A stretch of 64,000 nt of DNA from NCBI GenBank assembly GCA_027365175.1, contig DAHXNY010000003.1, positions 1 through 64,000 on the forward strand, read 5' to 3'. The stretch comes from Microcaldota archaeon (lineage in GTDB: Archaea > Micrarchaeota > Micrarchaeia > Micrarchaeales > CABMGC01). Position 1 is the first letter of the stretch; each line of letters opens with the position of its first letter. A program made the position numbers and the translations under genes. The notes beneath the pieces were generated by a model. The model was not told where the DNA came from. It ran no database searches and was given only the letters and a program-made list of their open reading frames with translations. Of this stretch, positions 31,367-43,862 are shown in pieces.

Positions 31367-31771
31367 CTAACCGCCCATTACTCTTGATATAGCTCTTCTT
31401 CCTGACGCTTCCATTATCTCTATCTCCGCCCCTGCCTTGACGCTGCCCTTCATGTCCTCAGGTATCGGCAGGTCGAAGGTCTCATAGCTCTCCAGGTCCA
31501 TAACCTGCGCAGTTGTGTCTGTAACTGATACAATCTGTCCTTTCTTCTTTGTTATTACAGGTACCTCTATGTCTCCGGAGCTCGGCTTCAGAAGGGTCTT
31601 CTTCTGCCCATCGAAGATGCCTATGCCCGTTATTCGCATCTTTGCAGCTCCGTGCTTTCCAGGTGCAGAGGTCTCTATGTCTACCACCCTGCACGCTATA
31701 CCGTCTATCATGACGAAGCGACCTATCTTTAGGTCCTTCATAGTTCCATAAGTTATTTCGTCTGTCACCAA
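31367..31771 (-). CDS. eif5a: translation initiation factor aIF5A
   Basis: hypusine loop SAPGKHGAAKMR; TTG (31771) or GTG (31768) start. Confidence 0.95.
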   Translation of the reverse strand: MVTDEITYGTMKDLKIGRFVMIDGIACRVVDIETSAPGKHGAAKMRITGIGIFDGQKKTLLKPSSGDIEVPVITKKKGQIVSVTDTTAQVMDLESYETFDLPIPEDMKGSVKAGAEIEIMEASGRRAISRVMGG

Positions 31772-31852
31772 ACCAGCTTCTCAAAAGTTTTACTGATAAA
31801 ACAAGTAAACCTGTTTTCCATAGGAGTATTAACTAAGAAAAATTTATAAATA
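31727..31852. repeat. 126-bp perfect direct repeat, copy 1 (aIF5A 5' end plus promoter)
   Basis: base-by-base identical to 34951-35076. Confidence 0.97.
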
Positions 31853-31942
31853 GGGATACATGAACGCATGTGAGAGCCAGAAACTTATAAGTATCATGTA
31901 AAACAATTATGTAATGCAGATTTAATAACCAAGTATGATAAA

Positions 31943-32653
31943 ATGACAAAGTATAAAACAGGAGAAGTTCTTGGAATAATTCCTACGCGAGGAGGTTCTA
32001 AAGGGTTGGAAAACAAGAATGTCAGATTTCTAGACGGAAAACCGTTAATAGCTTATACTATCGAAGCGGCTCGGGATTGCAAGGATATTGCAAAATTGGT
32101 CGTATCTACAGATAACAATACGATAGAGGAAGTTTCAAAGAAATATAATGTTGATGTATTTAGACATCCTCATGAGTTATCGTTAGATGGCAAGCCCACA
32201 TTTCCTGTTATACAATATGTTGTAAAGAATTTAGTTGAGTCCGGAGAAAAGTTTGAACTTGTAGCTGTCATGCGTGCAACTACTCCTCTTAGGACATCTG
32301 AAGATATATCCAAGGCAATAACATTGCTTCGCAAAACTGGAGCAGATTCTGTAGTAAGCGTGGTTGCCGACCCAACTGCACATCCTATAAGACTTAAAAA
32401 CCTTGATAGAGATTTAAGAGTATCATCGTTACAGAGTGGTGAAGAGGATTCTCCGATAATCCGTCAGAATCTCCCAGTAGTTTATAGACGTAATGGGGGA
32501 GTTTATGTAACAAGAGTTTCCATTATTTTAAATGGCAGTTTATTTGGCAAAGACTCTAGAGGATATGTAATGCCTAAAGAGAGATCGGTTAATATTAATG
32601 ATGAGGTAGATTTTGTATTAGCTGATGCGTTGTTGAAATCGCATCACAAATAA
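31943..32653 (+). CDS. acylneuraminate (CMP-sugar) cytidylyltransferase family protein
   Basis: GIIPTRGGSKGLENKNVRFLDGKPLIAYTIEAA; MRATTPLRTSEDI. Confidence 0.92.
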   Translation: MTKYKTGEVLGIIPTRGGSKGLENKNVRFLDGKPLIAYTIEAARDCKDIAKLVVSTDNNTIEEVSKKYNVDVFRHPHELSLDGKPTFPVIQYVVKNLVESGEKFELVAVMRATTPLRTSEDISKAITLLRKTGADSVVSVVADPTAHPIRLKNLDRDLRVSSLQSGEEDSPIIRQNLPVVYRRNGGVYVTRVSIILNGSLFGKDSRGYVMPKERSVNINDEVDFVLADALLKSHHK

Positions 32654-32682
32654 GTTAATATTAGTAAAGCATAGGCAGCAAC

Positions 32683-33267
32683 ATGGTAGTAAAAATATTA
32701 TTGCTTGATATTGGAGGGATTTTCTTTTACCCGAATTGGCGAATAAAAGGCATAAGAGAAGTTAGCGATAAGCTGCATGTTGGCTTAAATGATTTCAAAG
32801 CAGCTTTGGACGCGTATAAAAAACCTTTTTATACAGGAAATATGACCGAGGATATATATTGGACAAACATACTTGAAAGGCTAAATGTCTACAGTGTGAA
32901 GCCAGATGACCTTGTGAATTTATATAGAGATTATGTAAAACCAATTCCGGAAGCTATAAACCTGCTGCCCAAATTGTCTTCGAGATACAAATTGATATCT
33001 TTTAATAATTCCTCGAGAGAATGGATGGATTATAGAATAAATGTTGCTTCTTTGGATAAATATTTTTCAGAGTTTTTCACGTCAGGATATCTTGGCTATA
33101 CAAAATCAGATAACAGGATGTATGAAAAGGCTATACTATCTTATAATAAAGATGAATTATTTTATTTGGATGATAATGAAGAGTATATATCAAAAGCAAA
33201 AACAATATGCGGAATAAATGGTAAAGTGTATTTGAATAACACTGATCTCCTGCAATTAATAGCGTAA
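32683..33267 (+). CDS. HAD superfamily hydrolase
   Basis: LLLDIGGIFFYPNW, SFNNSS, FYLDDNEEYISKAK. Confidence 0.82.
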   Translation: MVVKILLLDIGGIFFYPNWRIKGIREVSDKLHVGLNDFKAALDAYKKPFYTGNMTEDIYWTNILERLNVYSVKPDDLVNLYRDYVKPIPEAINLLPKLSSRYKLISFNNSSREWMDYRINVASLDKYFSEFFTSGYLGYTKSDNRMYEKAILSYNKDELFYLDDNEEYISKAKTICGINGKVYLNNTDLLQLIA

Positions 33268-34785
33268 AACTGGTGGAAATGGGGGTCTTCTTGAATTGCC
33301 TTTTACTGATAGTTCATTGACAATTTGTGCAGATATGCCAGGTGTGCGGAAAGCAGTAAAGAATCCGTTTGCCACATCAGGCGAAAGTTCCAGAGAATGA
33401 AATAGTACTGATGCCCCGAAGTCAGTATTTGCACCTAAGCTTGGTCTTGTTTTTCTTATGGCTTTTGCATATTCAATTAGTCTATGTATAGTTTCATATT
33501 TTTCTGGAAATCCATCCATACTGGCTTTTATATATAAATCTACTCGTGGGTCTTTGCCTAACAGTCGGGTAGGATTTTCTGGATTAGTTTTGTGAATTCC
33601 ATGTCCAAAACCATAAATTACTTTGCCGGGTTTAACTAAATTTCTGATGTATGCTTCTCTGTCACTTTTCCTTTCCATTGTCAGATATTCTTTCGTTTGT
33701 TTCATACATTCGGTTACTGCTCCAGCGTGGAGTTTGCCACTCCGTATATTAAAACTGGCGATAAGGGCTCTTGGGAAGGTAGTTCTCACTGATGAAGCTA
33801 ATTGTGCAGTCAATTCTCCAGAATTTAGACCATGTGTTGAGTGTGCTAATGCTACTTTCCTAACTGCAGAAAGTTGCCTCTCTGTAACTTTCTTACCTGC
33901 TTGATGAAGAAACATCTTAATTGGATCGATAGTTTCGTTCAGGTTCACTAGTTTAGATGGATTGTTAAAATATGCTACTGTTGAAATGATGAAGCCCGTA
34001 AAATAATACGCGTCCATTATGACCTTTCTTCTACTTAGTAAGTTTTCTCCAGCAATTGCATTGGTGTTATATTCATATTTACTGAGACTCTCATACTTGT
34101 TTAAAATTTGTCTATTTAAAAGCTGTTGTGTAATAAGATCTACAATCTCCCAATTTTCTTGCTTTGCACGAGAGATTAGTTCCCTTTCTCTTTCTTCTAA
34201 AATTGCCCCTCGCTGGAAAGAAACTTCTGCATCGGATTTAAACCTCTCGTCTTTTTCTAAGAAGAGCTTCAGAGTAGCAGAAAAATAATTATTTTGGCTT
34301 GAAAATCTCTTTAATGACATTCCTGCGATTGTTATGCGTCCATCTAGTATATGTGATTGTCCTGAATGTGGATAACTCGGCGATCTGAATTTAAAGATTT
34401 TTAATACGTCATTAACACCGTCTCTTGCAGAACTTACCTCATTGATAACTGATGCGAAGACGTGTTCTTTTCCTAACTCGTTAAGCCTTGCGTTTATGGG
34501 TTTTAGAAGCGCCGTAGTTCTTTCTGAAAATACTTTGAGAGAGTGATTGCTGTTAAATAAGTTTATAAAGTCCGTTTTTAACTTAGCCATTTTTGGATCT
34601 GACAGTACCCCGGTGTCATTTAATTTTGAGGCAATATTATTATAGGAATTTAAAACTACATGCTTCCAGATTATCTCCTCTGGATCATGGTAGACATCAG
34701 GCTTTCTTTGCAAAGCTAAAAAAGGCTGTGCTCCTGTAGAATTTTCTGAGTTATTAGTTTTTATCCGACATATTTTGTTTCGCAT
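33256..34785 (-). CDS. citrate synthase-like protein with N-terminal extension
   Basis: C-terminal citrate synthase motifs SGKLHAGA, GFGHGIHKTNP...DPRVD, GANTDFGAS. Confidence 0.87.
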   Translation of the reverse strand: MRNKICRIKTNNSENSTGAQPFLALQRKPDVYHDPEEIIWKHVVLNSYNNIASKLNDTGVLSDPKMAKLKTDFINLFNSNHSLKVFSERTTALLKPINARLNELGKEHVFASVINEVSSARDGVNDVLKIFKFRSPSYPHSGQSHILDGRITIAGMSLKRFSSQNNYFSATLKLFLEKDERFKSDAEVSFQRGAILEERERELISRAKQENWEIVDLITQQLLNRQILNKYESLSKYEYNTNAIAGENLLSRRKVIMDAYYFTGFIISTVAYFNNPSKLVNLNETIDPIKMFLHQAGKKVTERQLSAVRKVALAHSTHGLNSGELTAQLASSVRTTFPRALIASFNIRSGKLHAGAVTECMKQTKEYLTMERKSDREAYIRNLVKPGKVIYGFGHGIHKTNPENPTRLLGKDPRVDLYIKASMDGFPEKYETIHRLIEYAKAIRKTRPSLGANTDFGASVLFHSLELSPDVANGFFTAFRTPGISAQIVNELSVKGNSRRPPFPPVLRY

Positions 34786-34926
34786 TTTAACAATTATAGT
34801 AACTTGTAGAGAAATATAAGACCTTGCCGCAAGATTTATAAATACGAATTGTGTCTCTGATCTTCAGTATCGTTTGTTAATGCACTTAGAATAAAGTATA
34901 AAGAGACGCTAATAACAGCAGAACTA

Positions 34927-34995
34927 TATTAAACAAACTAATCGGCCTACCTTTAGGTCCTTCATAGTTCCATAAGTTATTTCGTCTGTCACCAA
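34927..34995 (-). pseudogene. truncated aIF5A 5' fragment
   Basis: encodes MVTDEITYGTMKDLKVGRLVCLI* against MVTDEITYGTMKDLKIGRFVMIDG in the intact gene. Confidence 0.75.
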
Positions 34996-35076
34996 ACCAG
35001 CTTCTCAAAAGTTTTACTGATAAAACAAGTAAACCTGTTTTCCATAGGAGTATTAACTAAGAAAAATTTATAAATA
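34951..35076. repeat. 126-bp perfect direct repeat, copy 2 (duplicated aIF5A 5' end plus promoter)
   Basis: identical to 31727-31852. Confidence 0.97.
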
Positions 35077-35080
35077 CAGT

Positions 35081-35105
35081 TAACAGGCCCTATCTGGGCC
35101 TGTTA
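35081..35105 (-). terminator. hairpin downstream of ftsZ
   Basis: TAACAGGCCC-TATCT-GGGCCTGTTA, perfect 10-bp arms. Confidence 0.6.
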
Positions 35106-35123
35106 CGTTAAAATTAAATAATT

Positions 35124-36155
35124 TCAGTAGATGCTCTGGAGCGCCTCTAAGCGCATAGGCATAGCATTTGCATTGCTCTTGCGTTCGCCGAACTTCGCCT
35201 TCACTCCTGTAATTATTGACATTACCCTTATCTCCTCTCCGAGCTCAGGAAGCATCCTTGCGCCGAAGATGACGTTCGCATCTCCTGCAACGCCTTCTGT
35301 AACGCCGTTTGCTATCTCCGTAGCCTCGCTTATGGTCAGGTTTGCACCTCCGGTTATCTGTATGAGCGCTCCCTTTGCACCTTCATTCTCCACTGATAGC
35401 AGAGGATGTGCAAGAGTTGACTTTACAGCCTGTTCGACTCTGCCAGGGCCCTTTCCTGAGCCGAGGCTTATCACTGCCGTGCCTGTGTTCCTGACAACCG
35501 TGTTCAGATCTGCGAAGTCCAGGTTTATCAGGCTTGGGAAGTATATCGTGTCAGATATTCCCTTTACGGCATTGCCGGTTATATTGTCAACAAACTCGAA
35601 GGCCTTGTCCATAGGAAGGTTTGGCACATATGATAGGAGCTTGTCGTTCTCCACCACTATCGTGCAGTCCGCTTCCTTGTTCAGCCTGTCTATGCCCCAC
35701 TCTGCCTTTACCTTTCTGCTTCTCTCAAGTGCAAATGGGTATGTCACAGTTGCTATCACTGTTGCGCCGCACTCTCTTGCTATGTGAGCCACTATTGGAG
35801 CTGAACCTGTTCCTGTTCCTCCTCCCATGCCAGCAGCTACGAAGACCAGGCTGTAGCCGTCTAGGGCCTGCCTTATCTCCTCCTTGCTTACCTCTGCGCA
35901 TTTCTCAGCAACTTCTGGGAAACCTCCGGCTCCGAGTCCATTGGTTATGCTCTTTCCTATGAGCAGCTTCTTGTCGGCCTTGATTATGTTCAGATGTGCT
36001 ATATCCGTGTTTATGGCAATCTTGTCGGCGCTCTGCATGCCGTATCTTGATAGTCTGTTTACAAGGTTGCTACCCTGCCCACCGCAGCCTACTACCGCTA
36101 TCTTCGGTTTATAGGCATCATAGTCGAACTGCTCGTTTCCCATTCTTGCACCCAC
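35124..36155 (-). CDS. ftsZ: cell division protein FtsZ (paralog A)
   Basis: tubulin signature [17 protein letters not shown]. Confidence 0.96.
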   Translation of the reverse strand: MGARMGNEQFDYDAYKPKIAVVGCGGQGSNLVNRLSRYGMQSADKIAINTDIAHLNIIKADKKLLIGKSITNGLGAGGFPEVAEKCAEVSKEEIRQALDGYSLVFVAAGMGGGTGTGSAPIVAHIARECGATVIATVTYPFALERSRKVKAEWGIDRLNKEADCTIVVENDKLLSYVPNLPMDKAFEFVDNITGNAVKGISDTIYFPSLINLDFADLNTVVRNTGTAVISLGSGKGPGRVEQAVKSTLAHPLLSVENEGAKGALIQITGGANLTISEATEIANGVTEGVAGDANVIFGARMLPELGEEIRVMSIITGVKAKFGERKSNANAMPMRLEALQSIY

Positions 36156-41275: not shown

Positions 41276-41474
41276 ATAGCAAATATATTAATTATATTGC
41301 TGATTTTTGTAGATATATAGCACTTTTTGATTTATTATATTAAATAATTAATCATTATATTTAATACAAACAATGAATCTAATTGAATTGCAGAGAACAT
41401 AGAAGCAGGAGACATAAACGTAAAGATATAGCATTGGGATTGGCAGTTTAGGATGGCTTATGAAGCGCGCCTGA

Positions 41475-43862
41475 TCAGACAATCCCTGTGTTTATGCTTA
41501 TGTTCATCTCAGTAGTGGCTCCTGAAGAGACGTTTACTGATTTTGGAATGTTGCGCAGACAGCTTATGTAGTGGCAATTGAGCATGCTTACCGAGTAAGA
41601 ACCCGCAGCCACCTGCTGTGAGTATGTACCATTTGCGCCAAGGGGGATTGTGTAATTGTAGGCGTTGTTAGTTGATATGAGTTCCAGTTTGAGATTTGAA
41701 TAGAGTGTATTAAGGTCTATACTGCCTGCACAGGTATTGCTGATAGATTCTACAGGGCATAATGGGCCTATCACCACCCTGCCCTGAATTATCCCGAAGC
41801 CGGTCTGATTCTGCGGAATTGTAGTCACAGTAGTCGTAGTAGATGTCAACGTATCGTTTATGCTGCTGTTAGACTGTTCGGTTGTATTCCGGGATACCGA
41901 GTATGTGGTCTTTATTGACAGCTGCCCGTAATACTGATAGCCAGGGGCCTTTATAGTGAGGACCGCAGCTCTTATCTTCTGGCCTGCCGTGCATACGAAG
42001 CAGTGTATGCTTCCTGAAGAGCAGACAGGGCACCTCCCAGGAATATACTCCATCACATATGCCGTCCCTAGGAGAGTAAATCCGGGAGTAAGTATGCTTA
42101 TGTTCTTAAGCTGATAAGCAGAATAGTAATCGTTATACGAACCTGAGAGCAACGGCAGGGTGTAGTTAGCAGTTCCGTTTATCGTTGATGTAAAGCCCTG
42201 CAAAGAGATATTGTATGAGGAATTGCCTGCTAGCACCTGCTCGTTCACCATGCTCACTCCGACAAGCTTTGAGGTATAGTTGCTTATGCTGCCTTCATCA
42301 GAAGCAGTGTAATTCGCATTTGCAATTCCTGAATGCTGCTGTCCGGCACCGTTCACCTTTATGCTGTAATTCTGGCTAGGTATGAGAAGTATCCTTGTTA
42401 CCCCTCTGAAGAATGGCAGTGAATCTGCCGCATATGGCAGTGGGCCTATCCCAAGAGTGCCGTTGAAGCGGAGGTCTGCTGAAGCGCCGGGCTTGACAGA
42501 CAGGCCTGTGAAGCTTCTGCACCCTATGAATGCACCAATCTCATCGCCGTGGGACTCTTCGCAGTTTGGCACATAATTGAATATCGGGAGTGAGAGTGTC
42601 CCGTTGTCAAGCACGATGAAATTAAGGTAATTGTTGAACTTGTTGACAAATGCTCCGGCAGCATTTGCTTCAAGCTCGCTCTGGTTCCTGGATTCTGCGT
42701 TTGCAGATATTGATATCGCACTCTTGCCTATGCACATTATCCCGACGCATGTTTTTGCTGTTGTTCCTGCATTAGAATTATCAGATATGGCTGATGTATA
42801 GCCCTGATAGCCAAGCCTTATCTCTTCCATTAAGCCATTAAGCTGCATATTTGTCAGATTGACAGTAGTGTTGCCGGTGTTCTTTACCTCTATAGACATC
42901 ATGGTCAAATTGCCTGAAGAGGCCAGAGTGGCATTAGTTATTATTATGCTGCTGTTTGATCTTATCCTGCGGACTGTGTCAGGGCTTATCCTTTCTACGT
43001 AGCCTATGCTCCTGGTGCTTGCCGCTTCTGATCTGCCTATGAATATGGCCTTGACATTGGGAACCATCACGAATATACTCTCATTGTTCTGCGAATATAT
43101 ACTGACTATTGTAGGGTTCATGTTTATCAGGGCACCTCCTATAGAGGAGTTGGAGCTTGAGTTTAGCTGCGCTTCCACGTAGCCCTGAGGCACAGTCACG
43201 TTGTATGTGGTGTTATCTATAGTTATGTTTGCAGCTGTTATGTTGAGCCTTAGGGCCTTTATCATACTGTAGTTCTTCACATTCAGGACGGCTATTGTCT
43301 TTGTAACATTGGTCAGGTTGAGAAGGTCGGCAGTGCCACTGGCGTTGAAGTACTCGAATGCAGAGGAATTTGCATAGAATAGGCCTAATGAAGAGTATCT
43401 TATCGTCAGTGATGAGGTTCCTGGAGGCACAAGAGGAGGATCCGTAAGCTGCACTACGAAGTTGCCCTGCAGGGAGGAGTTTGAATACTGCGAATTGAAT
43501 GAAGGAGGAGTTGTAGAGTAGTTTCCTGGATAGACTGGCGCCCTGCCATTGAATAGAAATATGCCAATAGCTGCTATCGCTATTATTACAAGTATGCCTA
43601 CTGCGAAAGCCCTTACCTTTGCAACATTGTAACCGTTGTCCTCAAGGCGCTTTTCGAATCCATTGTTGTATTCGTAGTACTTCCACTTCCTGCTATAAGG
43701 ATTCTCTATCTCCTTTATGGCGCCTATCTTCAGGAGCTCTTTTATGTGCTGGTTTGTAGTAGACTGGCCCAGACCCAGCTTTTCGGATATCTGAGTCATT
43801 GTCATAGGCTTCTCTTTTACCAGTCCTATTATCTTCTTCTTGCTTTCAAAGAGCTTGCTCAT
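41475..43862 (-). CDS. membrane-anchored wHTH protein with large extracellular domain
   Basis: N-terminal wHTH KPMTMTQISEKLGLGQSTTNQHIKELLKIGAIKE, TM VRAFAVGILVIIAIAAIGIFLF, then ~680 aa rich in N-x-S/T. Confidence 0.8.
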   Translation of the reverse strand: MSKLFESKKKIIGLVKEKPMTMTQISEKLGLGQSTTNQHIKELLKIGAIKEIENPYSRKWKYYEYNNGFEKRLEDNGYNVAKVRAFAVGILVIIAIAAIGIFLFNGRAPVYPGNYSTTPPSFNSQYSNSSLQGNFVVQLTDPPLVPPGTSSLTIRYSSLGLFYANSSAFEYFNASGTADLLNLTNVTKTIAVLNVKNYSMIKALRLNITAANITIDNTTYNVTVPQGYVEAQLNSSSNSSIGGALINMNPTIVSIYSQNNESIFVMVPNVKAIFIGRSEAASTRSIGYVERISPDTVRRIRSNSSIIITNATLASSGNLTMMSIEVKNTGNTTVNLTNMQLNGLMEEIRLGYQGYTSAISDNSNAGTTAKTCVGIMCIGKSAISISANAESRNQSELEANAAGAFVNKFNNYLNFIVLDNGTLSLPIFNYVPNCEESHGDEIGAFIGCRSFTGLSVKPGASADLRFNGTLGIGPLPYAADSLPFFRGVTRILLIPSQNYSIKVNGAGQQHSGIANANYTASDEGSISNYTSKLVGVSMVNEQVLAGNSSYNISLQGFTSTINGTANYTLPLLSGSYNDYYSAYQLKNISILTPGFTLLGTAYVMEYIPGRCPVCSSGSIHCFVCTAGQKIRAAVLTIKAPGYQYYGQLSIKTTYSVSRNTTEQSNSSINDTLTSTTTTVTTIPQNQTGFGIIQGRVVIGPLCPVESISNTCAGSIDLNTLYSNLKLELISTNNAYNYTIPLGANGTYSQQVAAGSYSVSMLNCHYISCLRNIPKSVNVSSGATTEMNISINTGIV

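Follow-up and report, generated by a model that had tools for sequence, protein, structure and literature searches.

A three-gene cassette bracketed by perfect 126-bp copies of the aIF5A 5' end is a lineage-specific insertion between ftsZ2 and aIF5A in a Micrarchaeota archaeon

How did three genes come to lie between ftsZ2 and aIF5A, bracketed by two copies of the promoter and 5' end of aIF5A, and leave that gene whole? The question is raised by the 64,000-nucleotide stretch analyzed here (the window), whose host belongs to Ca. Micrarchaeota and whose assembly is designated G000. A direct-repeat search of the window revealed 126 bp that are 100% identical at positions 31727–31852 and 34951–35076, both on the minus strand, within a longer call at 31713–31852 and 34937–35076 (140 bp, 97% identity). 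No other direct repeat of at least 50 bp at 95% identity or more occurs in the window, the whole assembly holds exactly two copies of the 126 bp, and a perfect match of this length cannot be chance. An earlier reading of the letters without database searches (the sequence-only reading) had reported the same identical pair; its 3224 bp between the copies is in fact the start-to-start spacing, with a unique interior of ~3.1 kb. The coordinates also confirm its description of the repeat as the first 15 codons of aIF5A plus the TATA promoter. The proximal copy spans the TATA box, the 5'UTR, and codons 1 to 15 of the intact aIF5A gene (31367–31771, minus strand, Pfam IF5A-like_N; TTG start codon at 31771), and it ends 1 nt past the TATA box, TTTATAAAT (31843–31851). 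The distal copy opens a truncated aIF5A frame of 23 codons followed by a stop (34924–34995, minus strand). Its continuation through codons 16–20 (34937–34950, minus strand) has diverged by third-position codon changes, and still matches the closest congener at 11 of 14 bp (P ~4e-5). On its other side, the distal copy is 4 nt from the hairpin 3' of ftsZ2 that it had been said to abut (35081–35105, minus strand), a likely terminator by its fold energy (−18 kcal/mol, z −4.5, for 35070–35110), beyond which lies the conserved upstream neighbor ftsZ2 (35124–36155, minus strand).

The 5'UTR part of the proximal copy contains an imperfect dyad, AAAACAAGTAAACCTGTTTT (31798–31817), a candidate crossover or regulatory site that most of the genus conserves. 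The dyad is present in G000–G003 and G005 and absent from G004 and other genera; in G005 its loop has changed from UUUA to UUCG, which hints at an RNA hairpin. The predicted 5'UTR hairpin in the repeat is no more stable than shuffled sequence. A search of viral contigs with the 20-bp dyad gave 12 matches, 11 of them near-identical and unrelated to the window, and was dismissed as coincidence.

The junction was then compared with that in relatives, as the sequence-only reading had proposed. All five available congeneric genomes (G001–G005) are collinear with the window to either side of the junction, lack the cassette, and carry a single copy of the repeat, with ftsZ2 and aIF5A only 115–138 bp apart. 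Because all five sites are empty and single-copy, the cassette is a lineage-specific insertion between ftsZ2 and aIF5A, and the ancestral order suggested earlier, ftsZ2–aIF5A, is upheld. These data establish an insertion that duplicated the aIF5A 5' end and left the gene intact, as that reading had also held. The 126-bp block is unchanged (100%) in G002, the closest congener, where the surrounding DNA is ~90% identical to the window, and differs at one position in G001 (99.2%); this comparison identifies the block as a promoter and 5' end under strong conservation in the clade. Two further features concern related genomes. Window positions 41366–41480 mark a site where G001 is longer by ~3.8 kb and G002 by ~0.9 kb; the added DNA is a repeat-rich surface-protein gene, 3.7 kb long in G001, which the window lacks or has only in shortened form. 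In G102 (contig C8, 1812–2345), aIF5A is matched in two partial, overlapping pieces (residues 3–81 and 55–133) separated by a stop, as if the gene had been internally duplicated or rearranged.

The bracketed segment has a GC content of 35.6%, versus 49.2% on either side, and its cargo is absent from the rest of the genus. Searches against Pfam, NCBIfam, and PHROGs identified three cargo genes only and, as previously noted, no recombinase. The first gene (31943–32653, plus strand) encodes a NeuA/PseF-like cytidylyltransferase (CTP_transf_3, scoring under the PseF equivalog cut-off), and the second (32683–33267, plus strand) a HAD-family phosphatase (3cnh, E 5e-14). The third (33256–34785, minus strand) encodes a divergent citrate-synthase-like protein with a long N-terminal extension, in which a motif alignment places His, His, and Asp with the citrate synthase motifs. 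The earlier description of three lower-GC, non-housekeeping genes thus stands as to GC and is corrected as to one gene, which is citrate-synthase-like, if very divergent. The cargo has no match in PHROGs or PADLOC, viral contigs contain no relatives of the citrate-synthase-like protein or the cytidylyltransferase, and the proposed search of phages and plasmids with the whole cassette and its repeat found none. Among 303 genomes of the phylum, only G028, a member of the same family, encodes a protein closely related to the cytidylyltransferase (71% identical; the next are ~29–33% identical). There, the cytidylyltransferase and HAD genes keep the gene order of the window (locus L063, 8780–10200, contig C9), the citrate-synthase-like gene is cut to its last 25 codons, and the set is flanked by a tRNA-Gln gene on one side and a TRAM-proteasome-CPSF cluster on the other. 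Since this relative occupies a different locus and has a lower GC content than its surroundings (38.8 vs 52.0%), the gene set was acquired by two Micrarchaeota genera at two loci. The combination of a nucleotidyltransferase, a phosphatase, and an adjacent relative of condensing enzymes suggests that the products may activate an acidic sugar.

We surveyed the region upstream of aIF5A in ~95 loci from the family and order, defining extra DNA as more than 450 bp. Among loci with ftsZ2 and aIF5A as co-oriented neighbors, extra DNA, up to 3.9 kb, separates the two genes in 26 of 66 (25 of 64 by genome, as G053 and G016 were each counted twice), versus 0 of 59 for ftsZ1–ftsZ2 and 0 of 88 for aIF5A–S24e. 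Part of this contrast is ordinary, because the ftsZ2–aIF5A gap separates two operons and both control junctions lie inside operons. The cargo varies and includes a Fic protein, an IS200/IS605 element, an HD hydrolase, methyltransferases, unknown proteins, and surface proteins with class-III-like signal peptides (recognized by eye); the junction is permissive and receives differing cargo in many related genomes. In G048, the gap holds a complete-looking IS200/IS605 pair, TnpA and TnpB (L142, 1514–3134).

A long-repeat scan over these junction loci identified two more bracketed insertions adjoining aIF5A. In G028, a 90-bp perfect repeat (L064, 6996–7085 and 9052–9141, spacing 2056) lies in the ftsZ2–aIF5A gap, which is short in congeners such as G092, G093, and G100. 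This insertion (L064 6996–9141; contig C21, 30995–33140) encloses a 511-aa protein and a 110-aa membrane protein, neither with a Pfam match, and no third copy of its repeat was found. In G057, from another family of the same order, a 166-bp perfect repeat (L130, 1437–1602 and 6199–6364, spacing 4762) corresponds to the 3' end of the gene that lies upstream of aIF5A and encodes a KH/CPSF-type ribonuclease; the repeat ends 2 nt past the CPSF stop codon. The G057 insertion (L130 1437–6364, contig C1) encloses a methyltransferase, a radical SAM protein, and a Fic protein; in its congener G056, CPSF adjoins aIF5A and the cassette is absent. The repeat ends are sharp in both G057 and G028, and neither cargo includes a recognizable recombinase or integrase. 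The three repeats (90, 126, and 166 bp) are no more similar to one another than shuffled sequences are and share no core, a comparison that is relevant only if all three insertions use one enzyme, and the cargo ends of the three insertions are unrelated. Across ~620 kb sampled from the three genomes with bracketed insertions, no other direct repeat of at least 50 bp at 95% identity or more was found outside aIF5A junctions. A 348-bp, 92% repeat in L141 was set aside, as it sits in paralogous surface-protein genes; a 111-bp repeat in L035 lies far from aIF5A. Given the comparable insertions in two related archaea, new genes appear to accumulate at this position in the chromosome through a duplication process based on short homology.

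The explanation of the insertion that we prefer, with a likelihood somewhat short of even, is that a small circle was inserted by a single, Campbell-type crossover through ~100 bp of gene-end identity, with the enzyme supplied in trans. The horizontally acquired 3.2-kb cassette would have arrived on a circle that included a duplicate of the promoter and 5' end of aIF5A, and one reciprocal crossover within the ~126-bp identical stretch would have placed it in the chromosome. Toward ftsZ2, this would leave a truncated 5' end, and on the opposite side a functional promoter followed by the gene, so that the essential gene stays unbroken. This geometry is supported by the direct repeats, one copy truncated and one functional. 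The diverged 14 bp at codons 16–20 of the distal copy suggest that the cassette brought its own slightly different aIF5A fragment, which also favors the crossover; since different species share the 126-bp block, a donor fragment originating in a close relative would be expected to match. Repeats of 90, 126, and 166 bp with differing cargo and no core are expected if identity, not a motif, is what matters, and their lengths fit an event that needs ~100 bp of identity. Because the cassette has no recombinase, the crossover enzyme would act in trans, either as host homologous recombination or as a low-specificity archaeal tyrosine recombinase of the IntpTN3 kind. IntpTN3, a Thermococcus plasmid integrase, joins arbitrary identical segments of ~100 bp, and its activity has been shown in Thermococcus for inversions and plasmid integration (PMC5495485). 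This activity fits repeats of 90–166 bp and the absent common core; the 126- and 166-bp repeats reach ~100 bp and the 90-bp repeat of G028 falls slightly below. However, a PF00589 profile search identified no such enzyme or other suitable recombinase in the window's assembly. Host homologous recombination has been reported in T. kodakarensis only from 500 bp (PMC5495485), which also counts against the crossover, and a donor diverged in codons 16–20 should differ within the 126 bp as well, barring gene conversion. No free circle was seen in viral contigs or in phage or plasmid collections.

The insertion in G057 is harder to reconcile with a crossover. Its two repeat copies are identical to each other and 68% identical to the congener G056, which is more simply explained if host DNA was duplicated at insertion. 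Foreign DNA may have been caught at a staggered break or stalled replication fork, with 90–170 bp of host sequence duplicated, in the manner of an unusually long target-site duplication; both repeat copies would then be host DNA. We consider this possible but rather unlikely for the cassette. It accounts for repeats that vary in length (90, 126, and 166 bp) and have nothing in common, for the sharp repeat ends in G057 and G028, and for G057, where identity between the copies against a 32% difference from G056 argues for duplicated DNA from the same genome. The distal extension in the window, by contrast, carries 4 or 5 changes in 14–15 bp versus none in 126 bp, which is unexpected for a fresh, exact duplication. 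In addition, the repeat ends coincide with functional boundaries more often than random breaks would produce (1 nt past the TATA box in the window, 2 nt past the CPSF stop codon in G057), and known target-site duplications are far shorter.

Classical site-specific integration is somewhat less probable, and we regard it as unlikely. Here, attP of the element and attB within the 5' end of aIF5A would have been joined by a tyrosine recombinase that either acted in trans or was lost later, and the element's attP would have restored the promoter and first codons. The cassette does have attL/attR-type direct repeats (126 bp, perfect), but repeats alone do not identify an enzyme. Integration at a 5' end with gene restoration is established for the bacterial dusA islands, which, like the cassette, insert at the 5' end of a housekeeping gene, supply a new 5' end, and leave the truncated original on the far side (PMC4482086). 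Those islands use a dedicated integrase and imperfect 21-bp att repeats (PMC4482086), whereas the cassette has aIF5A as its target, a perfect repeat of 126 bp, and no integrase in its cargo; on account of these mismatches in target, integrase, and repeat, the cassette works like the dusA islands but is not a member of that family. Archaeal elements with tyrosine recombinases also have direct repeats proven by empty sites and can use protein genes as targets (PMC6563490). Their att repeats have a median length of 17 bp in Thaumarchaeota and 29–69 bp in crenarchaea, and whenever a thaumarchaeal element sits in a protein gene, it is the 3' end that is used (PMC6563490), in contrast to the 5' end, far longer repeat, and missing mobility gene of the cassette. 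Our literature search found no published report of aIF5A as an integration target. The restored 5' end, the repeat ends at functional borders, the 20-bp dyad as a possible core conserved in most of the genus, a truncated integrase gene elsewhere in the assembly, and the tRNA gene next to the related cassette in G028 would all suit an att system. Against it, the tRNA-Gln end is not repeated around that cassette, only one of the five congeners (G004) has tyrosine recombinase matches, and the missing integrase (in this cassette and its two analogs), the absence of any core common to the three repeats, and the repeat length weaken it further. The only tyrosine recombinase match of the window's assembly lies on another contig (C27; L090, about 1480–2250), is apparently truncated at its N-terminus, and abuts a surface-protein-like gene. 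Of the mechanisms put forward in the sequence-only reading, insertion is therefore confirmed and single-crossover integration of a circle survives as one live option, while a system like that of tRNA-gene attachment sites finds no support: the cassette has no recombinase and shares no core with the analogous insertions, 126 bp is longer than the archaeal att repeats compiled in PMC6563490, and neither cassette nor repeat was found in phages or plasmids. An island in Mia14, an ARMAN-type archaeon, resembles the cassette as a lineage-specific foreign block in a small-genome archaeon, but it measures 36.5 kb, splits its target gene, and encodes a XerD-family integrase (PMC5498576), whereas the cassette measures 3.2 kb, leaves its target intact, and has no integrase.

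It is highly improbable that the assembler threaded between the repeat copies a cassette that exists as a free circle or that comes from another strain with the 126 bp at its own locus: the assembly is fragmented, with many contigs below 1.2 kb, and 126 bp is near a short-read length or large k-mer, but such an artifact would still require a molecule with the cassette and the repeat on both sides, analogous structures occur in the assemblies of G028 and G057, and the ~620 kb sampled showed no such repeat elsewhere. A casposon or other transposon with target-site duplication finds no support, as the cargo has no transposase or casposase and the cassette ends have no long inverted repeat.

DPANN archaea, with their tiny genomes, rely on acquired genes, but little is known of how foreign DNA becomes fixed in them. 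The present locus offers a clean insertion, with the site empty in five relatives, at a junction that repeatedly receives different cargo, and its repeat lengths make specific recombination mechanisms testable. A set of cytidylyltransferase, phosphatase, and citrate-synthase-like genes has been taken up by two Micrarchaeota genera at different loci. As a broader proposal, which we think unlikely, Micrarchaeota may gain genes by recombinase-free, sequence-independent cassette insertion, whereby small DNA molecules bearing ~90–170 bp of a host gene end would cross over there, preferentially near aIF5A, and leave the target intact. If true, this would be a general route of gene uptake in DPANN archaea that needs only short identity.
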